Shown one piece after another: positions 52,435-64,000 of a stretch of 64,000 bases of DNA. Below the pieces are notes generated by a model. It did not search any database, was not told the DNA's origin, and saw only the letters and a program-made list of their open reading frames with translations. A program made the translations under genes and the position numbers. The DNA comes from Streptosporangium carneum (GTDB taxonomy: Bacteria; Actinomycetota; Actinomycetes; Streptosporangiales; Streptosporangiaceae): the NCBI RefSeq assembly GCF_027922005.1, contig NZ_BSEV01000005.1, forward strand, positions 1-64,000, written 5' to 3'. How positions within the stretch are numbered: the first letter of the stretch is position 1; each line of letters begins with the position of its first letter.

Positions 52435-53985
52435 TCAGACGGCCGGTGTGGTGAGGCCTGCGAGGGGGGCGGCCGTCGGGGTTCCGCCTGACAGGAGTTC
52501 GGCCACGGCCTGGCCTGAGACGGTCGTCGCGCCGTGGGTGGTGATGTGCGTGCCGCCGGGCGTCAGGGGGCCCGGCAGGCCCATCTCGACCACGACCGCG
52601 TCCGGACGCCGCGCCAGCAGGGCGTCGAGCCCGGCCGAGACCCAGGCGTGCCGGTGGGCGTCCCGCACCACGATCACCAGGGGACGCCCGTCGGCCGGGG
52701 TGGGAAGCGGATCGTCCGCGCCCAGCCGCACTCCTTCCGTGCCGGGGAGCAGCGCGGCCAGCGGCGCGGCGACGCCCCAGGGGGTCGCCCTGTCGATGGC
52801 GATGTTGGTTTCGGACACGAACTCGATCACCTGCGGGGCCGAGGTCAGCGGAAGCCCCTCGCCGCGGACCCGCAGGGCCCGCCTGGCCGCCGCGAGCCCC
52901 GCGGGGTCCGCGGAGTCTGTGGAGTCGGGGCCGGCCCCGCCCGTCGCCCACGTCACCCGGCGCTGCTCGGCCGACCAGGCGGCCAGGCGGCGCACCCGGG
53001 CCGCGGCCTCCGCCAGGCGCTCCTCGGGCAGCGTGCCGTCGATCACCGCGGCCATGATGGCGTTGCGCATGAAACCGACCACGCCCGCGCCCTTGCGCTC
53101 GCCGCCGACGCAGATCGCGTCGGCGCCCGCGGCCAGGGCGCGCACGGCCGCGCCGGTCACGCCGTACCGCTCGGCGACCGAGGGCATCTCGACGGCGTCG
53201 GTCACGATCAGCCCGTCGAAGCCGAGCTCCTCGCGCAGGAGGCCGACCAGGAGACGGCCGCTCATCGTGGCGGGGGAGTCGGGGTCGTAGGCGGGGACGA
53301 GCAGGTGACCGGTCATCACGGCCTGGACCCCCGCCTCGATGGCGGCCCGGTACGGCGGAAGCGTCGTCGCGGCCAGCTCCTCCACGGAGTACGACACCGT
53401 CGGCAGGTCGTTGTGGGAGTCGACGGCGGTCGCCCCGTGCCCGGGGAAGTGCTTGGCGCAGGCGGCGACCCCGGCGGACTGCAGCCCCGTGACCCACGCG
53501 GCGGTGTGCCGGGCGACCAGCCAGGGGTCGGAGCCGAAGGCGCGGGTGCCGACGACGGGGTTGTCCAGGTCGGAGTTGACGTCGACCACGGGGGCGTAGT
53601 TGAGGGTGATGCCCGCCTCCGCCATGTCGGCCCCGATCCCCCTGGCCACCCGTTCGGTCAGCTCGGGGTCGTCGACCGCGCCGAGCGCGAGGTTGCCGGG
53701 GCGCGAGCTGCCGGTGAGCGCCTCGAGGCGGGTGACGTCACCGCCCTCCTCGTCCGTGGCGATCACCACGTCGGGGTTCTCCGCCCGCAGGGCGGCGGTC
53801 AGGGCCCTGACCTGCGCGCTGTCTACAAGATTTCGGGAGTAGAGCGCAACCCCGCCAAGCCCCTCCGCGAGCCGTCTGCGCAGCCAGTCGGGTACCTCGA
53901 CCCCCACGAAGCCCGGCTGCAGCACGGTGTCGGCAAGCCCGGCCAGTTCGGGGCTCGCGCCACTCAGGCCCCCGCGAACGATCAT
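52435..53985 (-). CDS. Glycoside hydrolase family 3, NagZ-like beta-N-acetylhexosaminidase
   Basis: 516-residue GH3 enzyme. The NagZ-type catalytic motif KHFPGHGATAVDSHNDLP (near residues 177-194) holds the acid/base Asp-His pair. The nucleophile Asp is in LGFDGLIVTDAVEMPSV (near residue 264), and a short C-terminal domain follows. Such enzymes release GlcNAc from muropeptides or chitooligosaccharides. No signal peptide, so cytoplasmic. ATG 53985 has GGAGGCGTT ahead. The upstream gap carries a ROK-type site. Confidence 0.92.
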   Translation of the reverse strand: MIVRGGLSGASPELAGLADTVLQPGFVGVEVPDWLRRRLAEGLGGVALYSRNLVDSAQVRALTAALRAENPDVVIATDEEGGDVTRLEALTGSSRPGNLALGAVDDPELTERVARGIGADMAEAGITLNYAPVVDVNSDLDNPVVGTRAFGSDPWLVARHTAAWVTGLQSAGVAACAKHFPGHGATAVDSHNDLPTVSYSVEELAATTLPPYRAAIEAGVQAVMTGHLLVPAYDPDSPATMSGRLLVGLLREELGFDGLIVTDAVEMPSVAERYGVTGAAVRALAAGADAICVGGERKGAGVVGFMRNAIMAAVIDGTLPEERLAEAAARVRRLAAWSAEQRRVTWATGGAGPDSTDSADPAGLAAARRALRVRGEGLPLTSAPQVIEFVSETNIAIDRATPWGVAAPLAALLPGTEGVRLGADDPLPTPADGRPLVIVVRDAHRHAWVSAGLDALLARRPDAVVVEMGLPGPLTPGGTHITTHGATTVSGQAVAELLSGGTPTAAPLAGLTTPAV

Positions 53986-54102: not shown

Positions 54103-55593
54103 ATGCCCTCTGTCACCCTGCCCGAAGAGAAGTCACCCAAGAGGGAGACGGACAGGATGTCGCACGCCTCCTTCGCTTTGCGAGGGATTCCGTTGGTGCT
54201 CCACCTCAACGGCCCCCTGGATGTTCCCGCGCTGCTGCGCGCGTGCGCCGCCGTAGCGGAGCGGCACCCCGTGCTCGGCCCGGTCAGGGTGGCCAGGGTC
54301 GAGTCGTCGCCCGAGCGCTACCCGGGGGTCGCGGCGGCCGAGGTGGCCCGACCCTTCGACCTGGAGAACGGCCCGCTCGCCCGGTTCACCCTGGTCAGGG
54401 TGGGGCGGGACCGCAACAGGCTGATCTTCACGGCACACGGCAGGGTGTTCGACGGCTGTTCGAAGGACGTCCTGGTCCACGACCTGGCCGACGCGTACTT
54501 CTCACGCGCCGCGCCGCCCGGGCCCGCCGTGCCGTACGGCGAGCGGGGCACGGCCGCCGAGGCGGCGGAGGCGGACAGTACGGCGGCACGGACGTTCTGG
54601 CGGGACAGGGGACACGCCCCGCAGGGACTCGTCCTGCCGGGGCTGCGCGCGACCGCCCACGGCGTCGGCCCCGGCGAGATCGTCGAGATGGTGCTCGCGG
54701 GGGCGGAGTTCCAGGCGTTCGCCGCCGCCGCGACCACCCTGGGCGCCACCAGGTTCGAGCTGCTCGTGGCCGCCGTCGGCGTGCTGCTGCGCCGCTACGG
54801 CAACACGGGCTCACCGCTCGCACTCGCCCTCGGCACCCGCACCGACCACACCCGCGACCACATAGGCCCCTTCGTCGCCGAGATGCCGTTCGCCGCCTGC
54901 CCGAGCCTCGACGAGACCCTTCCCGTCTATCTGCGCGCGGTCAGATCCGAGCTGCGCGAGCTCTACCGGCACCGGCACGCGCCGCCGGAGACCGTCCTGC
55001 GCCCCGTCCTGCTCGGCTACCGCAGGAGGGCGGCGGCGCCGTACTTCCCGGGAGTCGGCACCGGCGTCGAGTGGACGGTCTTCAACGGCGCGGCCCGTGG
55101 CGTGCTGCACCTCGAGGCGGTGGACGGGGACATGAGCCTCACCCTCGGCCTCCGCTTCAACCCGCTCGCGATCGGCCACGACGACGTGGCCCGCGTGGCG
55201 GGGCACCTGCGCGCCCTGCTGCGCGCGATCGCCGCAGAACCGCGCGCGAAAGTCGCCGACCTGGCCGCGCCGGTCCACCCAGAACCCGACGAGGAGCCCC
55301 CAGTGACCGAGCTGTTCTCCCCGGCAGAAAACGCCGCCTCCCCGTCCTCGGAACAGGAGGACGAGGTGGTCGCACAGGTACGCCAGATCTGGCAGGAGGT
55401 CCTCCGCCTCGACGACATCGGCCTCGACGAGGACCTCTACGACCTCGGCGGCCACTCGCTGACCATCACGCAGATCATCGCCAGGGCCCGTCGCAGGCTG
55501 GGCGTCGAGGTCTCCCTCGACGTCTTCTTCGACACCCCCACCATCGCGGGCATGGCCGAGGAGGTCTCGCGGCTGCGGGGAGATAACGCGTGA
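54103..55593 (+). CDS. NRPS didomain protein: degenerate condensation domain + carrier
   Basis: 496 residues. Residues about 25-400 have the fold of a condensation domain, but the core motif reads AHGRVFDG: first His and Asp-Gly are kept, the catalytic second His is Gly, and the C1 motif is missing. A peptidyl carrier follows, with DLGGHSLTITQIIARARRRL (phosphopantetheine Ser near residue 450). There is no adenylation domain, so its carrier must be loaded in trans. ATG 54103 follows TTCGGGGGCG. It overlaps the next NRPS gene by four bases (GTGA). It may act as a docking or structural condensation domain presenting a starter acid. Confidence 0.85.
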   Translation: MPSVTLPEEKSPKRETDRMSHASFALRGIPLVLHLNGPLDVPALLRACAAVAERHPVLGPVRVARVESSPERYPGVAAAEVARPFDLENGPLARFTLVRVGRDRNRLIFTAHGRVFDGCSKDVLVHDLADAYFSRAAPPGPAVPYGERGTAAEAAEADSTAARTFWRDRGHAPQGLVLPGLRATAHGVGPGEIVEMVLAGAEFQAFAAAATTLGATRFELLVAAVGVLLRRYGNTGSPLALALGTRTDHTRDHIGPFVAEMPFAACPSLDETLPVYLRAVRSELRELYRHRHAPPETVLRPVLLGYRRRAAAPYFPGVGTGVEWTVFNGAARGVLHLEAVDGDMSLTLGLRFNPLAIGHDDVARVAGHLRALLRAIAAEPRAKVADLAAPVHPEPDEEPPVTELFSPAENAASPSSEQEDEVVAQVRQIWQEVLRLDDIGLDEDLYDLGGHSLTITQIIARARRRLGVEVSLDVFFDTPTIAGMAEEVSRLRGDNA

Positions 55594-58500
55594 GCGCGCT
55601 CTCCCCCGCGCAGGAGCGCCTGTGGTTCCTCGACCGGCTCACGCCGGGAGACGGCGCCTACAACATAGTCGTCTGCGAGCGGCTGACCGGGCGGATCGAC
55701 GCCGACGCCCTGGAACAGGCGCTGAGCGAGATCGTCGCCAGGCACGAGGCGCTGCGCACGGTCTTTCCCGAGGCGGGCGGCGCCCCCGTCGCCAGAGTCC
55801 TCGACCCGACGCCCGTGGTGATGGAGCGTCTCGACGCGCCCTCCGAGGACCAGGCGCTCCAGGAGGCGCTCGCCGAGCGGAGCAACCAGCCGTTCGACCT
55901 GGCCGCGGGACCGCTGCTGCGCGTGAGCCTGCTGCGCGTCGGGCCGCAGGAGCACATCCTCCTGCTGGTCATGCACCACATCGCCGGGGACGCCTGGTCG
56001 ATCGAGGAGATCCTGTTCGCCGAGCTGGCCGAGCTGTACGCCGCCTTCGCCGCGGGACTGCCCTCGCCGCTCGCGCCGCCGTCCCTGCAGTACGGCGACC
56101 ATGTGCGCGGGCAGCACGAGCGACCCGCGGACGTCGCGGGCCCGGCGAGGGAGCTCGCGGGCGTCTCGGTGCTCGACCTGCCGACGGACAGGCCGCGCCC
56201 CGCCGTACGGTCGACCGACGGAGAGCTGGTGATCCACCGCGTCCCGCTCGAACTGTGGCAGCGGCTCACCGAGCTGGCCAGGACCAGGCGGTGCACCCCG
56301 TTCATGGCCCTCATGGCCGCCTACCAGGTTCTGCTGTCCCGCTACAGCGGGCAGGAGGACTTCTGCGTCGGCACCCCCGTCGCCGGGCGTGACGACGAGG
56401 ACTTCGAGTCCGTCTTCGGCATCTTCATCAACACCCTGGCCATCCGCGCCGACCTCGGAGGCGACCCGTCGTTCGAGGAGATCCTCAAGCGGGTGCGGCG
56501 GCGCGCCTTCACCATGTACGGCCACGCCGCCGTGCCGTTCGAACGGCTGGTCGGCGAGCTGCGGCTCGGCGGCGACCCCGCGAGGACCCCGCTGTTCCAG
56601 ACGATGCTGACCCTCGGCAACCCCGAGGCGGGCTCGATCGAGCTCCAGGGCCTGCGCTCCGAGCCGGTGGTCTCCGGGCTGGTGGCCGCCAAGTACGACC
56701 TGGCCCTGAACGTGGTCGTCTACCCGACGCACCTGCAGCTGATGTTCGACTACAGCACCGCCCTGTACGACCGGTCGACCGTGGAGCGGATGGCCGTCCA
56801 CTTCGAGACGCTGCTCGGCTCGATCGTCGACGCCCCGGGGCGTCGGCTGTCCGAGCTGGAGATCCTGCCGGAGTCCGAGCGCGCGATCGTCCTCGGCGAA
56901 CCCCCGGAGGACCTGGCCTGGGACGCGGGAGCCCTCCTGCTCGACCATCTGGTCGCCCGGCAGGCCGCCCGCACCCCGGACGCCCCGGCCGTCGTCACCG
57001 AGGAGGCGGTGCTCACCTACGGTGAGCTGGACCGGGCCGCGAACGCCCTCGCCGCCCGGCTGCGCGCCCTGCTGGCGCAGGCGCGGCCCGCGGGGGACGG
57101 CGTCCACCCGGGCGCGCGGGTCGCGCTCGGGTTGCCCGCGAGCCCGGAGGCGATCGTGGCGCTGCTGGGCGTCCTCAAGGCGGGAGCCGCCTACGTGCCG
57201 CTGGACCCCGCCCAGCCCGCCGAGCGACTCGGCCGTCTTCTGGCGGACTCCGGCGCGGCCGTGGTGATCGCCGACGGGGCGGAGTTCGCCGGGTTCACCG
57301 GGCCGGTCGTGACGCGCGCCGACCTCGCCCTGTGGGCGGCGGCGGAGGAGGAGGCCGAGACGCCCAGGAGCGCGCTCAGGCACCCCGACCAGGCCGCCTA
57401 CGTGATCTACACCTCCGGCTCGACCGGCAGCCCCAAGGGGGTCATGGTCGGCCACCGGACCCTTTCCCACCTGGCCAGGTCGTTTCGCGACCTGCACGGG
57501 TTCGGCCCGGGGGAGCGGGTGCTCATGGTCCCGCCGCTCAGCTTCGACGCCTCGGCGGGAGACGTCTTCCCCGCGCTGATCAGCGGCGCCGCCCTGGTGC
57601 TGCACCCCGAGACCGCCTCGCTCACGGGGCCCGCGCTCGCGGAGCTGTGCGCCAGGCGCGCGGTCACCATGGTCGACGCCGCCTCGGCCCTGTGGCAGCA
57701 GTGGGTCGACGACCTGGACGCGGCGGGCGTCCAGGTCGGCGAACCGCTCACGACGATGATGGTCGGCGGGGAGAGCATCCCGGTCGAGCGCCTGCGGACC
57801 TGGGCCAGGCTCTCCGGAGGGCGGGTGGCCTTCCACAACCACTACGGCCCGACGGAGGCGACCGTCTGCGCCACCTCCTACCGCACGGTCGACGGCGCCG
57901 AACTGGGCGCGGCCACCCATCTGCCGATCGGCGCCGCGCTCCCGCACACCCGCGTCTACGTCCTCGACCGGCACGGCAACCCGGCCCCGACAGGCGTGCC
58001 CGGCGAGGTGCACATCGGCGGGGAGTGCCTGGCCCACGGCTACCTCGGCCGTCCCGGGCTGACCGCGGCCCGGTTCGTGCCCGACCCGTTCTCCCCGCGC
58101 GCCGGAGCCAGAATGTACGCCACGGGCGACCTGGCCAGGCGGCGTCCCGACGGGAACCTGGAGTTCCTCGGCAGGACCGACCGGCAGCTGAAGGTCAACG
58201 GCAACCGGATCGAGCCCGGCGAGGTCGAGGCGGCGTGCCTCGCCTGCCCGGGGGTCCGCGAGGCCGTCGTCGTCGCCGACGGCCGGAGGCTGATCGCCTA
58301 CCTCGTCGGCGAACCGCCCACGACCGCCGGACTGCGCGCCTTCCTCGCGGGCAGGCTTCCCGCGTACATGATCCCCGCGGTCGCCGTCACGCTCCCCGCC
58401 CTGCCGCTGACCCCGCACGGCAAGGTCGACTTCGGGGCGCTGCCCGAGCCCGACCGGGACGCCGCGCCGCCGTACGAGCCGCCGAGGCAGGGCACGGAAC

Positions 58501-59861
58501 GGGCGCTCGCCGAGATCTGGGCGCGGATGCTCGGCGCGAAACCCGGCAGGAAGGACAACTTCTTCGCCCTGGGCGGCCACTCGCTGCTGGTGCCGCAGGT
58601 CGTCTCCGCCGTCGCGGCCGAGCTGGGGGTCACGGTCCCGATGACCGAGGTCTTCGCCGCCGCGACCCTGGCGGAACTGGCCGAGGTCGTCGGCGGCAGG
58701 CCGGCCGAGGTCGTCGACCTGCGCGCGGAGGCGGTCCTGCCCGGCGACGTCGCCTTCGGCGGCGCGCCGATCCCCCAGGGGCCGCCGCGCCGGGTGCTGC
58801 TCACCGGGGCGACCGGCTTCCTCGGGGCCTACCTCCTCGCCGAGCTGCTGCGCGTCACGGAGGCGACCGTCCACTGCCTGGTCAGGGGAGACGAGCCCGC
58901 CGAGCGGCTGCGCGCCAACCTCGAACGGTACGGACTGTGGGACGACCGGGTCGCCCACAGGATCGTTCCGGAGAGCGGCGAGCTGGGCGTCGCGAGACTC
59001 GGCCTGTGGGACGGGCGTTTCACCGAGCTGGCCGACACGGTCGACCTCGTCGTGCACAACGGCGCCCTGGTCAACTTCGCGCTGCCGTACCGGCGGCTGC
59101 GGGGGGCCAACGTGGACGGCGTCCTGGAGATCCTGCGCCTGGCGTCGAGCGGCCGGATCACCGCCCCCGTCCACCTGGTGTCCACCCTCGGCGTGCACCT
59201 GACCCCCGGCGAGCGCACGGTCAGGGAGGGGGACCCGCTGCCCGATCCCGGCCTGCTCCACCTCGGCTACGACCAGAGCAAGTGGGTCGCCGACCGGCTG
59301 GCCGAGACGGCCCGCCGCACCGGGCTGCCGATCTCGATCCACCGCCCCGCCAGGGTCTCCGCCGACAGCCGCACGGGACAGGCCATGCCCGGCGACTTCC
59401 TCGGCAGGCTCTTCGAGACCTGCGTGCGGCTGGGCGCGGTGCCCGACGGGGAACGGCTCGACATGGCGCCGGTCGACCACGTCGCCTCGGCGATCGTCCA
59501 CCTGGCGTCGAGCGGGGCGACCGGCGACTTCCACTACCACAACCCCCGCACGCTGCGCTCCGCAGTGCTGGCCGAGGGCCTGACCAGGCACGGCTTCCCG
59601 GTACGGCTCACCCCCGGCGACGAGTGGCGCAGGCTGGTCCGCGACCGGCTCGCCGTCGGCGACGACCTGCCGATCGCCCTCTACCCCGGCTTCTTCGCCG
59701 AGTACGGCGAGCAGGCGGGGCCGTCCTTCGACTGCTCGGCCACCGAGGAGAGACTCGCCCGCGCCGGGCTGGCCTGCCCGGCCGCCGACGCCGAGCTGCT
59801 CGACCGCTACCTGGACCACTACGTCGACACCGGGGTGCTCGTCGGAGGCTGCCGTGCATGA
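55590..59861 (+). CDS. NRPS module C-A-T with terminal thioester reductase
   Basis: 1423 residues. C domain (about 1-430): LSPAQERLWFLDRL, RHEALRTVF and MHHIAGDAW (HHxxxDA, catalytic His kept). A domain (about 440-950): AYVIYTSGSTGSPKGVM near 603, NHYGPTEATVCA near 749, YATGDLARRRPDGNLEF near 842, LPLTPHGKVD near 940. T domain: NFFALGGHSLLVPQVV near 995. R domain (about 1065-1423): LLTGATGFLGAYLLAEL for NADPH and the GYDQSKW Tyr/Lys pair near 1226. The chain should leave as an aldehyde or alcohol. A pocket read by eye gives D-A-G-D-M-G-H-V-C-K, unlike the usual proline code. Confidence 0.94.
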   Translation: MSALSPAQERLWFLDRLTPGDGAYNIVVCERLTGRIDADALEQALSEIVARHEALRTVFPEAGGAPVARVLDPTPVVMERLDAPSEDQALQEALAERSNQPFDLAAGPLLRVSLLRVGPQEHILLLVMHHIAGDAWSIEEILFAELAELYAAFAAGLPSPLAPPSLQYGDHVRGQHERPADVAGPARELAGVSVLDLPTDRPRPAVRSTDGELVIHRVPLELWQRLTELARTRRCTPFMALMAAYQVLLSRYSGQEDFCVGTPVAGRDDEDFESVFGIFINTLAIRADLGGDPSFEEILKRVRRRAFTMYGHAAVPFERLVGELRLGGDPARTPLFQTMLTLGNPEAGSIELQGLRSEPVVSGLVAAKYDLALNVVVYPTHLQLMFDYSTALYDRSTVERMAVHFETLLGSIVDAPGRRLSELEILPESERAIVLGEPPEDLAWDAGALLLDHLVARQAARTPDAPAVVTEEAVLTYGELDRAANALAARLRALLAQARPAGDGVHPGARVALGLPASPEAIVALLGVLKAGAAYVPLDPAQPAERLGRLLADSGAAVVIADGAEFAGFTGPVVTRADLALWAAAEEEAETPRSALRHPDQAAYVIYTSGSTGSPKGVMVGHRTLSHLARSFRDLHGFGPGERVLMVPPLSFDASAGDVFPALISGAALVLHPETASLTGPALAELCARRAVTMVDAASALWQQWVDDLDAAGVQVGEPLTTMMVGGESIPVERLRTWARLSGGRVAFHNHYGPTEATVCATSYRTVDGAELGAATHLPIGAALPHTRVYVLDRHGNPAPTGVPGEVHIGGECLAHGYLGRPGLTAARFVPDPFSPRAGARMYATGDLARRRPDGNLEFLGRTDRQLKVNGNRIEPGEVEAACLACPGVREAVVVADGRRLIAYLVGEPPTTAGLRAFLAGRLPAYMIPAVAVTLPALPLTPHGKVDFGALPEPDRDAAPPYEPPRQGTERALAEIWARMLGAKPGRKDNFFALGGHSLLVPQVVSAVAAELGVTVPMTEVFAAATLAELAEVVGGRPAEVVDLRAEAVLPGDVAFGGAPIPQGPPRRVLLTGATGFLGAYLLAELLRVTEATVHCLVRGDEPAERLRANLERYGLWDDRVAHRIVPESGELGVARLGLWDGRFTELADTVDLVVHNGALVNFALPYRRLRGANVDGVLEILRLASSGRITAPVHLVSTLGVHLTPGERTVREGDPLPDPGLLHLGYDQSKWVADRLAETARRTGLPISIHRPARVSADSRTGQAMPGDFLGRLFETCVRLGAVPDGERLDMAPVDHVASAIVHLASSGATGDFHYHNPRTLRSAVLAEGLTRHGFPVRLTPGDEWRRLVRDRLAVGDDLPIALYPGFFAEYGEQAGPSFDCSATEERLARAGLACPAADAELLDRYLDHYVDTGVLVGGCRA

Positions 59862-61338
59862 CGGCATCCGCAGATTCGTCGTGATCTGGGCGGCGCAGCT
59901 GCTGTCGATCATCGGGTCGAGCCTGACCGGGTTCGTGCTCGGCGTCTGGGTCTACCAGCGCACCGGCTCGGCCACCGAGTTCGTGCTGATCATGCTCTGC
60001 GCGGTGCTTCCCGAGGTGCTGCTGTCGCCGCTGGCGGGGTCGATGGCCGACCGGCTGGACCGCAGGCGGATGCTCATGACCGCCGACGCCGGAGCCGCCG
60101 TGACGACGGGCGTCCTGGCGGTGCTGCTGGCCGGCGGCGCGCTCGAGGTCTGGCACGTCTACGTGATCACGGTGGTCGGCTCCGTCTTCGGCGCCTTCCA
60201 CATGGCCGCCTACCACTCGATGATGCCGCTGATCATGCCGCAGCGGCACCTCGGCCGCGCCAACGGCCTGATGCAGGTCGCGGACGCGGTCCACATCGCG
60301 GCGCCGCTGCTGGCGGGAACGCTCCTGGTGACCGTCGGGATCACCGGCGTCGTCGTGATCGACCTCGCCACCTTCCTGGTCACCAGGGTGGTCATGTTCG
60401 CCGTACGGCTGCCGGCCGAGGTCACCCGCCCCGGCGGCGCCGTCACCGAGTCCCAGCCGCTGGGCAGAGACCTGTCGTTCGGCTGGCGGCACCTGCGGGC
60501 CAGGCCCGGCCTGTTCCGGCTGGTCGTGCTGCTGGCCGTCTACAACCTGCTGTTCGGCATGTCCGGCGTGCTGGTCCAGCCGCTGATCCTGTCGTTCGGG
60601 TCGGCGGCCGTGCTCGGCGCGCTGATGTTCGCGGGCGGCGCGGGCGTCTTCGCCGGCGGCCTCGCGCTGAGCGCGTGGGGCGGCCCGAAACGCAGGGTGC
60701 GGGGCGTCGTGGCGTTCGCGGCGCTCGGCGGGGCGCTGCTCGCCCTGCACAGCCTCGCCCCCTCACCCTGGCTGATCGCGGTCGTCGCACCCGCCTTCCT
60801 GTTCACACTCCCGTTCGTGCAGGGCACGGCGATGACCGTGCTGCAGCTGAAGACGGAACCGGCGGCGCTCGGCCGGGTGCTCAGCACGGTCCGCACCCTC
60901 ACCCAGACGGCGACCGTGCTCGCCTACCTGCTCGCGGGTCCCCTCGTCGACCGGGTCCTCGAACCCGCCATGGCGCGGGACGGAGCCCTCGCGAGCAGCC
61001 TCGGCGCCGTGATCGGCACCGGGAGAGGACGAGGCGTCGCCGCCGTCTTCCTCATGGCGGGCCTCGCCCTGCTGGTGCTCGCCCCGCTTCTGTACCTCCA
61101 GCCCCGCCTCCGCGGGGTGGAGACCGAACTTCCCGACGCCGAGGACGTGCACCGACCGGAGCCCGTCACCCAGGAGACCCCCGTCGCGCACCGGCCTTCC
61201 GGCGACCCCGACGCCCCCGCCGGCCCCTCGGGGCACGGCGGGGAGGCGGGCCCGGAGGCGGGGAGCGAGTCGCCCGACGTCGCGCAGACCGCGCGAACCG
61301 CGCAAGGAGACAGCGATGCCGTTCTATCTCGACCCTGA
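59854..61338 (+). CDS. MFS exporter of the NRPS cluster
   Basis: 494-residue major facilitator with about twelve hydrophobic segments. It opens WAAQLLSIIGSSLTGFVLGV, with loop 2-3 LLSPLAGSMADRLDRRRMLM, the family's usual motif A. It resembles MFS_3/enterobactin exporter-like drug pumps. An unusual C-terminal tail of about 75 residues (from near residue 420) is rich in Pro, Glu, Gly and Asp. It overlaps the NRPS gene by 8 bp and the methyltransferase gene by 23 bp, so it is within the same transcript. Likely product export and self-protection. Confidence 0.88.
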   Translation: MHDGIRRFVVIWAAQLLSIIGSSLTGFVLGVWVYQRTGSATEFVLIMLCAVLPEVLLSPLAGSMADRLDRRRMLMTADAGAAVTTGVLAVLLAGGALEVWHVYVITVVGSVFGAFHMAAYHSMMPLIMPQRHLGRANGLMQVADAVHIAAPLLAGTLLVTVGITGVVVIDLATFLVTRVVMFAVRLPAEVTRPGGAVTESQPLGRDLSFGWRHLRARPGLFRLVVLLAVYNLLFGMSGVLVQPLILSFGSAAVLGALMFAGGAGVFAGGLALSAWGGPKRRVRGVVAFAALGGALLALHSLAPSPWLIAVVAPAFLFTLPFVQGTAMTVLQLKTEPAALGRVLSTVRTLTQTATVLAYLLAGPLVDRVLEPAMARDGALASSLGAVIGTGRGRGVAAVFLMAGLALLVLAPLLYLQPRLRGVETELPDAEDVHRPEPVTQETPVAHRPSGDPDAPAGPSGHGGEAGPEAGSESPDVAQTARTAQGDSDAVLSRP

Positions 61339-62428
61339 GGACCTCAGATACCAGGCGCCAGGACCGCACCTCGACCTGATCGGGTCGATGGCGTTCCGCG
61401 CGGCCGGCGCAGCCCAGCGATTAGGGGTCTTCGAGACGCTCCTGTCAGGCCCGCTCCCCGTGGCGGAGCTGGCGGCCAGGACGGGCACGGACGCGGGAAC
61501 CCTGCCCGTGCTGCTGGACGCGCTCGTCTCCTTCGGCTACCTCGACAGGACGCAGGAAGGGGGCTACGCCAACAGCCCGATGACGGCCGGCTCCCTCGAC
61601 CGGCGGGCCCCCTGGAGCTACGCCCCCGCCCTGGCCTTCTGGCAGGACCTGCTGGGCGAACTGTGGGACGGGCTTGAGGAGTCCGTCAGGACCGGCAGGC
61701 CGCAGGCCGACTTCTACGCGTGGCTGGAGAGGCGCCCGGACACCCTGCGGGAGTTCCAGACCATGCTGGACGGAATGGCGGCGGGGCTCGCCCCGCTCAT
61801 CGCGGAGAGCGCTCCCGCTCCGGGGAGGCGGCTGCTCGACGTCGGTGGCGGCCACGCCCGCTACAGCATCGCCTTCTGCCAGGTCCACCCGGAACTCACC
61901 GCGACGATCGTCGACCTGCCCGCCGCCCTCGAGGGCGGCAGGGCCAGGATCGAGGAGGCGGGACTGGGCGGGCGCGTCACCACGCTTCCCGGCGACGTGA
62001 CCAGGAGTGATCTCGGCACGGGCTACGACACCGCGCTGCTGTTCAACCTCTGTCACGGGTTCGACGAGGCGGCCAACCGTGAGCTGCTCGGCAGGGTCGC
62101 CGCCGCGTTGCGGCCGGGCGGCACGGTGCTGGTCCTCGAGACGTTCGCGGACCTGCCCCGGGAGACGCCCCCGGTGACCGAGGCGTTCATCAGGGCCTTC
62201 AGCCTCAACCTCGCCGTCACCCAGGGCGGCCGCACCCACACCTTCGCCGACGTGGCCGGCTGGCTGGCCGACGCCGGGTTCGAAGTGGCCGAGCGGCGCG
62301 GCCTCGGCGGCCCCGACGAGCTGCTCGTCGCCCGGCTGCCCGAGACGGCCGTGCCGTCCGCCCCGCACCCGGAAGCCGGGGCCCGCCCCCTGCTCCCCGC
62401 CGCCTGGACCATGGAGGAAGGCCGATGA
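61316..62428 (+). CDS. SAM-dependent methyltransferase (O-methyltransferase_2-type fold)
   Basis: 370 residues: an N-terminal dimerisation/winged-helix part (AFRAAGAAQRLGVFETLLSG) and a C-terminal SAM domain with RLLDVGGGHARYSIAFCQVH near residue 176 and ALRPGGTVLVLETFADLP. Its position next to a kynurenine monooxygenase is like the C-methyltransferases of 3-hydroxykynurenine in sibiromycin- and actinomycin-type precursor routes; the substrate is inferred. Leu36 is encoded by TTA (61421-61423), so translation may need the bldA tRNA. Start ATG 61316 with AAGGAGA ahead. It overlaps the KMO gene by four bases. Confidence 0.85.
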   Translation: MPFYLDPEDLRYQAPGPHLDLIGSMAFRAAGAAQRLGVFETLLSGPLPVAELAARTGTDAGTLPVLLDALVSFGYLDRTQEGGYANSPMTAGSLDRRAPWSYAPALAFWQDLLGELWDGLEESVRTGRPQADFYAWLERRPDTLREFQTMLDGMAAGLAPLIAESAPAPGRRLLDVGGGHARYSIAFCQVHPELTATIVDLPAALEGGRARIEEAGLGGRVTTLPGDVTRSDLGTGYDTALLFNLCHGFDEAANRELLGRVAAALRPGGTVLVLETFADLPRETPPVTEAFIRAFSLNLAVTQGGRTHTFADVAGWLADAGFEVAERRGLGGPDELLVARLPETAVPSAPHPEAGARPLLPAAWTMEEGR

Positions 62429-63759
62429 CGCGCAGGATCCTCGTCGTCGGCGCGGGACCGGCCGGCACGCTCCTGTCCTGTTACCTGGCACGGCGAGGGT
62501 TCCAGGTGGACGTCTACGAGCGGCGTCCCGACCCCCGGCTCCTCGACGAGGACGAGAGTAGATCGATCAACCTGGGCCTGTCGGCCAGGGGCATCAGGGC
62601 GCTCGAGGACGTCGGCCTGATGGGGACGTTGTGGCCGCTCACCGTGGCGATGCGAGGCAGGGCCATCCACCTGCCCGGCGGCGGGGCCCCCTTCCAGCCC
62701 TACGGCGCGCACGACGGGGAGATCCTCCACTCGGTGCTGCGCCGCGACCTGATCACCACGCTGGTCGACCACGCGGAGGCACAGGCCGGGGTGAGCTTCC
62801 ACTTCGGGCACCGGCTCGTCGACCTCGACCGCGAGGCGGCGGCCGTACGCCTGGTCCAGGAGGAGACCGGAGCCGAGATCACCGTCTCCGGCGACGCCGT
62901 GATCGGCGCCGACGGCGCGTTCTCGCAGGTGCGGACCCGCATGCAGCACGGCCTCACGGCGGACAACCACCAGGAGTTCCTGGAGTGGGGCTACAAGGAG
63001 CTGACCATCCCGGCCGCCGACGACGGCTCGGCCAGGACCAGGCTGGAGGCGCTGCACGTCTGGCCGGGTGAGGACGCCCTCATCGTCGCCCACCCCAACC
63101 GCGACAACTCCCTCACCGGAACCCTCTTCCTGCCGGTCGAGCGGTTCGACGAGATCACCGACCCCGAGGCGCTCTTCGAGGAGCGCTTCCCCGACGCGCT
63201 GGAGCTCATGCCGTACCTCGCCAAGGAGTACGCCGAGCACCCGGTCGGCCACCTGGTGTCGATCCGCACCTCCCACTGGCACTACCGGGACAGGGTGGCG
63301 CTGATCGGCGACGCCTGCCACGCGGTCTACCCCTTCTACGGCCAGGGCATGAACTCCGCGCTCGAGGACTGCACGGTCCTGGACCGCTGCCTCGGCGAGC
63401 ACCCCGGCGACCTCGGCGCGGCGTTCGCCGCCTACCAGCGACTGCGCAAGCCCCACACCGACGTGCTGGACGAACTGTCCAAACAGAACTTCGTCGAGCT
63501 GCGCGACCGGCTCAGATCCCCGCTCCACCTGGCCCGCAAGAAGGCCGACCTGCTGCTCGCCCGGCTCCTGCCGGGACGGTGGGTCCCGCTCTACACGATG
63601 GTCTCGCACACCACCACCCCGTACGCGGACGCGCTGGCCCGTGCCCGGCGTCAGGACGCGATCCTGCGCCGGGCGGGAGCGGGCGGCCTCGCCGCGCTGG
63701 TCGCCGGTGTGGTGGCCGGTGCGGCGCTCAGGGCACGGCGGAACCGGAAGGGCCGTTGA
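62425..63759 (+). CDS. kmo: Kynurenine 3-monooxygenase
   Basis: FAD-dependent hydroxylase turning kynurenine into 3-hydroxykynurenine. The 444-residue protein has the FAD motif ILVVGAGPAGTLLSCYLARR, the Arg/Tyr substrate region (SRSINLGLSARG), ALIGDACHAVYPFYGQGMNS near residue 292 and the KMO-specific end MVSHTTTPYADALARAR. Ahead of the basic C-terminus lies a hydrophobic stretch (GLAALVAGVVAGAAL), like the membrane anchor of eukaryotic KMO and unusual for a bacterial one. In this operon it most likely makes the aromatic precursor for the NRPS. Confidence 0.9.
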   Translation: MTRRILVVGAGPAGTLLSCYLARRGFQVDVYERRPDPRLLDEDESRSINLGLSARGIRALEDVGLMGTLWPLTVAMRGRAIHLPGGGAPFQPYGAHDGEILHSVLRRDLITTLVDHAEAQAGVSFHFGHRLVDLDREAAAVRLVQEETGAEITVSGDAVIGADGAFSQVRTRMQHGLTADNHQEFLEWGYKELTIPAADDGSARTRLEALHVWPGEDALIVAHPNRDNSLTGTLFLPVERFDEITDPEALFEERFPDALELMPYLAKEYAEHPVGHLVSIRTSHWHYRDRVALIGDACHAVYPFYGQGMNSALEDCTVLDRCLGEHPGDLGAAFAAYQRLRKPHTDVLDELSKQNFVELRDRLRSPLHLARKKADLLLARLLPGRWVPLYTMVSHTTTPYADALARARRQDAILRRAGAGGLAALVAGVVAGAALRARRNRKGR

Positions 63760-63761
63760 CC

Positions 63762-64000
63762 ATGCTGACCGATCCCACGGACCCCTCGCGCGTCCTCATC
63801 GAAACCTCAGACCTGGACGGCGACCACGACCTGGTCCGCCGGTACGGCGTGTCGCTCAAGGAGATCGTCCTGTGGGCGCGGGAGTACCTGTGCCGTCCCC
63901 ACGCCGACCTCGGCAGGAAGGGGCCTGTCTGCCCCTACGCCCAGACCTCGCTGGACCGGGGCACCTTCTACCTGGGAGTCCGTCCGGGAACACCGGACGG
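63762..64000 (+). CDS. DUF6875-like protein (3' end outside the window)
   Basis: Only the first 79 codons are visible. VSLKEIVLWAREYLCRPHAD and LGRKGPVCPYAQTSLDRGTF, with the conserved CRPH and GxVCPY motifs, match what I know as the DUF6875 family, whose function is not known. It begins two bases after the KMO stop with a weak ribosome-binding site, so it belongs to the same operon. The cysteines may bind metal or a cofactor. The cluster continues beyond the edge. Confidence 0.6.
   Translation, partial: MLTDPTDPSRVLIETSDLDGDHDLVRRYGVSLKEIVLWAREYLCRPHADLGRKGPVCPYAQTSLDRGTFYLGVRPGTPD

Follow-up and report, generated by a model that had tools for sequence, protein, structure and literature searches.

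The right-hand end of a 64,000-nucleotide stretch of DNA from Streptosporangium carneum (positions 1 to 64,000 of contig NZ_BSEV01000005.1, here C5, of the 9.84 Mb genome G000; hereafter the window) carries six genes that we read as a tryptophan-tailoring cassette for a peptide aldehyde. A nonribosomal peptide synthetase (NRPS) would release an acyl-(Gly-basic-)X aldehyde, in which X would be tryptophan oxidised by a DUF6875 protein and a FAD monooxygenase (FMO) and then O-methylated; we hold this reading with confidence and doubt in about equal measure. The gene set is not a chance assembly, because it recurs in other genera. The NRPS domains are abbreviated as C (condensation), A (adenylation), T (carrier) and R (reductase), C* being an altered C domain; KMO stands for kynurenine 3-monooxygenase and MFS for major facilitator superfamily. 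The features within the window are the following.

54103..55593, forward strand: C*-T protein, a condensation-like domain with HH changed to HG and an intact carrier domain (Pfam Condensation and PP-binding).
55590..59861, forward strand: C-A-T-R NRPS module with A-domain code DAGDMGHVCK and a thioester reductase terminus (Pfam Condensation, AMP-binding, PP-binding and NAD_binding_4).
57387..58469, forward strand: adenylation core with the conserved code (residues 600-960 of the C-A-T-R protein).
59854..61338, forward strand: predicted MFS exporter (Pfam MFS_1).
61316..62428, forward strand: methyltransferase with His247, a probable O-methyltransferase (Pfam Methyltransf_2).
62425..63759, forward strand: KMO-like FMO with R79, Y93, N355 and Y390 (Pfam FAD_binding_3).
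63762..64000, forward strand, first 79 of 270 codons in the window: DUF6875 (cytochrome P422-type) protein, a probable heme tryptophan oxidase (Pfam DUF6875).

The genes overlap by 4, 8, 23 and 4 bp, and a 2 bp gap precedes the DUF6875 gene, which is whole at C5:63762-64574 and ends 574 bases beyond the window edge. An earlier note, made from the letters of this DNA, had described a tightly packed six-gene operon at 54103-64000 with its last gene cut by the window edge; all six genes were confirmed with Pfam domains, and the gene called DUF6875-like there scored 220.5 bits with PF21780 (cut-off 24.5).

The C-A-T-R protein retains the carrier serine, the YxxxK motif of the R domain (YDQSK) and the HHxxxD motif of the C domain, in which Ala follows Asp. 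Its reductase domain, located after T, scored 285.6 bits with TIGR01746 (cut-off 213.35). The protein thus has the sequence features of a reductive-release NRPS and its product probably leaves as an aldehyde, which supports the earlier proposal of an unusual NRPS that ends in a reductase and is linked to tryptophan tailoring. The ten-residue code of the A domain was mapped through the core motifs, at the positions used for PheA. It reads DAGDMGHVCK in 23 of 24 C-A-T-R rows, window included, and DAGDTGHVCK in L120; L063 and L116, counted in these rows and in the FMO rows below, are one locus. The code differs from what we take to be the proline code, in agreement with the non-proline pocket suggested before. 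Among protein relatives, a pattern search gave the same code in 44 of the 120 matches listed (of 4597), and its carriers include proteins of Streptomyces anulatus, S. uncialis and Saccharothrix obliqua. As a control, reductase-domain matches with a fetched locus were read. The code was present in 21 of 26 matches from 18 genomes, many of them chosen for having DUF6875, and this count includes the orphans L178 and L198. Among 70 reductase loci, 27 of which gave no readable A domain, it was found in two (L178 again and L253).

The sequence of the DUF6875 protein found no convincing match in the Protein Data Bank, so its predicted fold was compared instead. The model resembles AglA (9ub3), with template modelling (TM) scores of 0.33-0.39 and 12-16% identity. 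C57 is invariant in the DUF6875 rows aligned and may be the counterpart of the AglA heme ligand Cys44. DUF6875 proteins have been described as heme tryptophan oxidases (PMC13307353). In the zigralone cluster, a demethoxylated quinaldic acid builds up when either ZigI (DUF6875) or ZigH (methyltransferase) is deleted; the authors anticipate hydroxylation at C7 of the indole followed by methylation (PMC13307353). By analogy, the protein encoded here, for which the earlier note gave no explanation, is likely a tryptophan-acting heme enzyme. Residue 148 of this protein (L009:13762-14571) is Tyr in 9 of 34 rows, namely the window and close relatives, and His in the other 25 (GEFY versus GEFH or GQFH), possibly an active-site change. 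Elsewhere, a natural fusion (L136:9351-10766) joins an N-terminal DUF6875 to a C-terminal tryptophan dioxygenase, four proteins (P0154, P0156, P0176 and P0197) fuse DUF6875 to a YbaK/EbsC (PF04073) domain, and in genomes of the genus of G222 more distant DUF6875 genes (L307, L308 and L310-L315) lie near genes that by eye are trpC-like and, in some loci, trpF-like.

The best solved relatives of the FMO, among the matches listed, are KMOs (E 4e-80). Its residues R79, Y93, N355 and Y390 correspond to R84, Y98, N369 and Y404 of the Pseudomonas fluorescens KMO, the kynurenine carboxylate contacts, which are named in PMC6376250. All four are kept in 27 of 28 DUF6875-linked FMO rows, the exception being L120 with His in place of Y390, and R79 is kept in 30 of 30 rows. 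The label KMO given in the earlier note is therefore right by sequence, while kynurenine is only a putative substrate. A VioC-type indole oxygenase was also considered; the NCBIfam score was 174.6 against a cut-off of 760, and KMO fits better. A second such monooxygenase in the genome, KMO16, is 58% identical to the FMO of the window. It belongs to a separate NRPS cluster (G000:C16:1-35000; L012-L014) with a tryptophan dioxygenase, a tryptophan halogenase, two TauD-type oxygenases and an ABC-2 transporter gene.

For the methyltransferase, the best solved relative among the matches listed is RedM, with SibL fourth by E-value (9.5e-26). All 38 distinct rows compared have His247, which we presume to be the catalytic base of an O-methyltransferase. 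It aligns with Val in SibL, as read by eye, and by the same alignment RedM also lacks His at that place. The enzyme is probably an O-methyltransferase and a distant relative of SibL.

DUF6875 genes were found in 33 of 200 genomes of the family, 53 of 297 in an order draw, 44 of 295 in the genus of genome G222, which from its named proteins is probably Streptomyces, and 3 of 396 in a phylum draw, own genome included. Of the 395 others in the phylum draw, the two with DUF6875 had no cassette in the stretch read. Besides the window, 75 distinct DUF6875 loci were read and divided at 42.5% identity to the DUF6875 protein of the window, a cut chosen after the data had been seen. The FMO gene adjoins DUF6875 in 43 of the 47 loci at or above this value versus 0 of the 28 below it. 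The A-domain code and the methyltransferase were each counted in 42 of the 47 closer loci; these counts overlooked the code of L115 and the methyltransferases of L112 and L115, the methyltransferase match in L133 is weak (31%), and L111 and L114 each lie at the start of a contig. On a tree of 56 DUF6875 rows, built before the loci of the G222 genus were fetched, the FMO label requires 3 changes, compared with a mean of 14.2 after shuffling. Eight of the loci are named, three from Streptosporangium and five from Nonomuraea, among which N. soli (L062) has a different gene order. In the G222 genus, 4 of 20 loci read, out of 55 places, have the order A-T, FMO, DUF6875, C-A-T-C-A-T-R, methyltransferase. 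The cassette thus recurs in Streptosporangium and Nonomuraea and probably in some Streptomyces. A literature search returned nothing on the string DAGDMGHVCK or on the gene combination, and a search on DUF6875, cytochrome P422 and heme or C-7 hydroxylase returned only PMC13307353; the items listed for 7-methoxytryptophan, 7-hydroxytryptophan and peptide aldehydes include none that is plainly this cluster. The cassette is apparently uncharacterised.

The C*-T protein bears out the earlier C* label. The second His of HHxxxDG is replaced by Gly (HGRVFDG or HGRVFDA) in five of five rows, comprising the window and four orthologs of the same genus, one a remnant, while HH is retained in 15 other aligned C, C-T or C-A-T rows and in the C domain of the C-A-T-R protein. 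The T domain shows 49-59% identity to seven carriers from C, C-T or C-A-T proteins encoded next to an AMP ligase; the values are 29-37% for four modular carriers and 17% for the discrete carrier at C5:88148. All six functions are present in G142, G071 and G189, with C* and T split into two genes in the latter two, as they also are in G659. As judged from these gene comparisons, the C*-T protein is an accessory of the cassette, because it was not found in five Nonomuraea operons. G196 retains a C* remnant of 413 aa, flanked by a left-flank gene and another gene; by their starts, the two match genes that border the operon here, one on each side. This is a natural loss.

A second NRPS region lies further along the same contig (C5:84738-106994; L010 and L011). 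It consists of DMFA2-like, C, T, MbtH-like (by eye), C-A-T-C-A-T, AMP ligase, C, T, E1-alpha, E1-beta, E2 and C-A-T-TE-MFS genes, TE being a thioesterase; E1-alpha, E1-beta and E2 are 2-oxoacid dehydrogenase-like. The codes of the C-A-T-C-A-T protein are DILQLGVIWK and DAEDIGTIIK, which we take to be a glycine code and a basic-residue code, respectively. The free AMP ligase, at C5:95261, is 31 kb downstream of the operon; its best solved relatives among the matches listed are FadD5-like and not clearly aryl-acid enzymes. The pathway probably extends beyond the operon, with cassette and second NRPS in one pathway, because N. endophytica and N. typhae have homologs of several second-NRPS genes next to the operon, and because in L117 and L169, from two other genomes, the cassette occurs in one stretch with C-T and E1 genes whose homologs here are 31-37 kb downstream. 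Of the 47 closer loci, 11 have an AMP ligase in the stretch. G000 itself has another line (G000:C9:239205-252741; L203 and L204), which comprises a C-A-T-C-A-T protein (DILQLGVIWK and DTEDVGTVIK), a reductase-type NRPS with code DAGDMGHVCK, whose carrier Ser was not found by pattern search, and an MFS gene. Genes that by eye are beta-N-acetylglucosaminidase-like, ABC sugar uptake and ROK-like interleave with the cluster (window 52435-53925 and C5:72463-79264), and their homologs adjoin it in Nonomuraea.

Every reaction that follows, like X and the product, is proposed from the gene set, its linkage, the conserved motifs and the fold match. The DUF6875 protein would oxidise L-tryptophan, hydroxylation at C7 being the likeliest reaction; the FMO would put a second oxygen on the free amino acid, and the methyltransferase would cap a phenol. 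The A domain of the C-A-T-R protein would then load X, or a precursor of X, and its C domain would couple X to an upstream acyl or peptidyl chain. This chain would most likely come from the second NRPS, by way of the AMP ligase with C and T and then the glycine-like and basic-like modules. The C*-T protein may be a duplicated, condensation-dead carrier that passes the acyl group of the AMP ligase straight to the C-A-T-R protein. The R domain would free the chain in the form of an aldehyde that may undergo cyclisation, and the MFS protein would export the product. If true, this gives a function to a recurrent and apparently undescribed actinomycete gene set and an A-domain signature usable in genome mining, and shows a kynurenine-pathway enzyme working with the newly recognised DUF6875 heme oxidases. 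With few, closely packed parts, the product and the order of the enzymes are directly testable.

Several observations weigh against this proposal. At the TM scores and identities given above, the match to AglA is modest, and the regiochemistry is borrowed from ZigI, whose step the authors of PMC13307353 themselves infer. No FMO is present in L157 and L170, whose cassettes are otherwise complete and whose genomes both have other copies with FMO; it is also missing from L133, a short and partial match, and from L316, where another FAD enzyme is beside DUF6875. In L062, L119, L121 and L126 the second NRPS does not accompany the cassette within the stretch read; as L062, L157, L168 and L169 all belong to one genome, G708, the chain could there be supplied from another locus. 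Finally, the code DAGDMGHVCK also occurs away from the tailoring genes. The stretches read around the reductase-type NRPSs of G000:C9 and G687:C6, which have this code, contain no FMO, DUF6875 or methyltransferase, nor does the 4.4 kb piece that represents G070:C26. The code is also present in P0030, P0048 and P0052, which all have a thioesterase domain, and in P0054, all four without the R signature. These copies weaken an exclusive coupling of the code to the tailoring genes, and because of them X may be loaded as an unmodified amino acid.

The same copies favour a first alternative, in which the A domain would load an ordinary amino acid, and tailoring by the DUF6875 protein, FMO and methyltransferase would affect another residue or follow assembly. 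We consider it rather unlikely: the three reductase-type orphans sit in genomes having DUF6875 and FMO elsewhere, and the carboxylate-binding residues of the FMO suggest a free amino acid as substrate. Slightly less probable still is a kynurenine-type route, in which DUF6875 or a chromosomal dioxygenase opens tryptophan, the FMO as a true KMO gives 3-hydroxykynurenine, which is methylated, and the kynurenine aldehyde released by the C-A-T-R protein closes onto the aniline to form a benzazepine-like ring. The kinship of the FMO to KMOs and its conserved contacts fit this route, as do the clustering of KMO16 with a tryptophan dioxygenase on C16 and another dioxygenase on C7. However, none of the 47 closer loci has a tryptophan dioxygenase within two genes of DUF6875. 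In L136 and L317-L320, where DUF6875 does lie near a dioxygenase, none of the listed genes is an FMO; DUF6875 thus resembles an additional tryptophan oxidase and not a replacement dioxygenase. The anthranilate or 3-hydroxy-4-methylanthranilate amide aldehyde or pyrrolobenzodiazepine (PBD) scaffold of the earlier note is very improbable: the C-A-T-R protein, the KMO, the SibL-related methyltransferase and an AMP ligase 31 kb downstream are present, but the operon has no A-T anthranilate loader, His247 stands where SibL has Val, the gene set is conserved in other genera, and the linked kynureninase and tryptophan dioxygenase of the PBD/actinomycin pathway, which the earlier note proposed to look for downstream, are lacking, as searches of the whole genome and four relatives placed kynureninase (TIGR01814) in this genome only on C18 and C46 and the dioxygenase (PF03301) only on C7 and C16, neither on C5. 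The earlier note had named missing kynureninase or aryl-acid activation genes downstream as a refutation of its reading; half of this holds, as a free AMP ligase does lie downstream.

Among known systems, the zigralone cluster shares a DUF6875 protein (ZigI) and a methyltransferase (ZigH) with the operon, but it is a terpenoid-quinolone pathway for which the paper lists no NRPS or FMO (PMC13307353). AglA, a YqcI/YcgG heme Arg N-hydroxylase, differs in its arginine-type substrate and is 13% identical (9ub3; PMC12866846). The P. fluorescens KMO is, among the matches listed, the best solved relative of the FMO and has the same substrate carboxylate residues, but here the FMO is paired with DUF6875 and has no linked dioxygenase or kynureninase. 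The sibiromycin, anthramycin, tomaymycin and actinomycin clusters share with the operon C-A-T-R release (in the PBDs), KMO and the SibL-like methyltransferase family; they differ in the linked enzymes and loader lacking here and in the proline code. Saframycin-type lines (SfmC) resemble the proposed pathway in that acyl and Gly modules precede a terminal C-A-T-R protein, which takes a residue made by the action of a heme hydroxylase and a methyltransferase. The A-domain code here differs from the saframycin-type code, to which we take DPWGLGLIDK, found in two other genomes (L206 and L207), to be close. Tentatively, the cassette may be a tryptophan counterpart of the saframycin logic, in which a thiolate-heme DUF6875 hydroxylase, a KMO recruited for hydroxytryptophan in place of kynurenine and an O-methyltransferase would make a dioxygenated tryptophan, and a dedicated A-domain class (DAGDMGHVCK) would convert it to the terminal amino aldehyde, the whole being used in varying modular combinations by several actinomycete genera.

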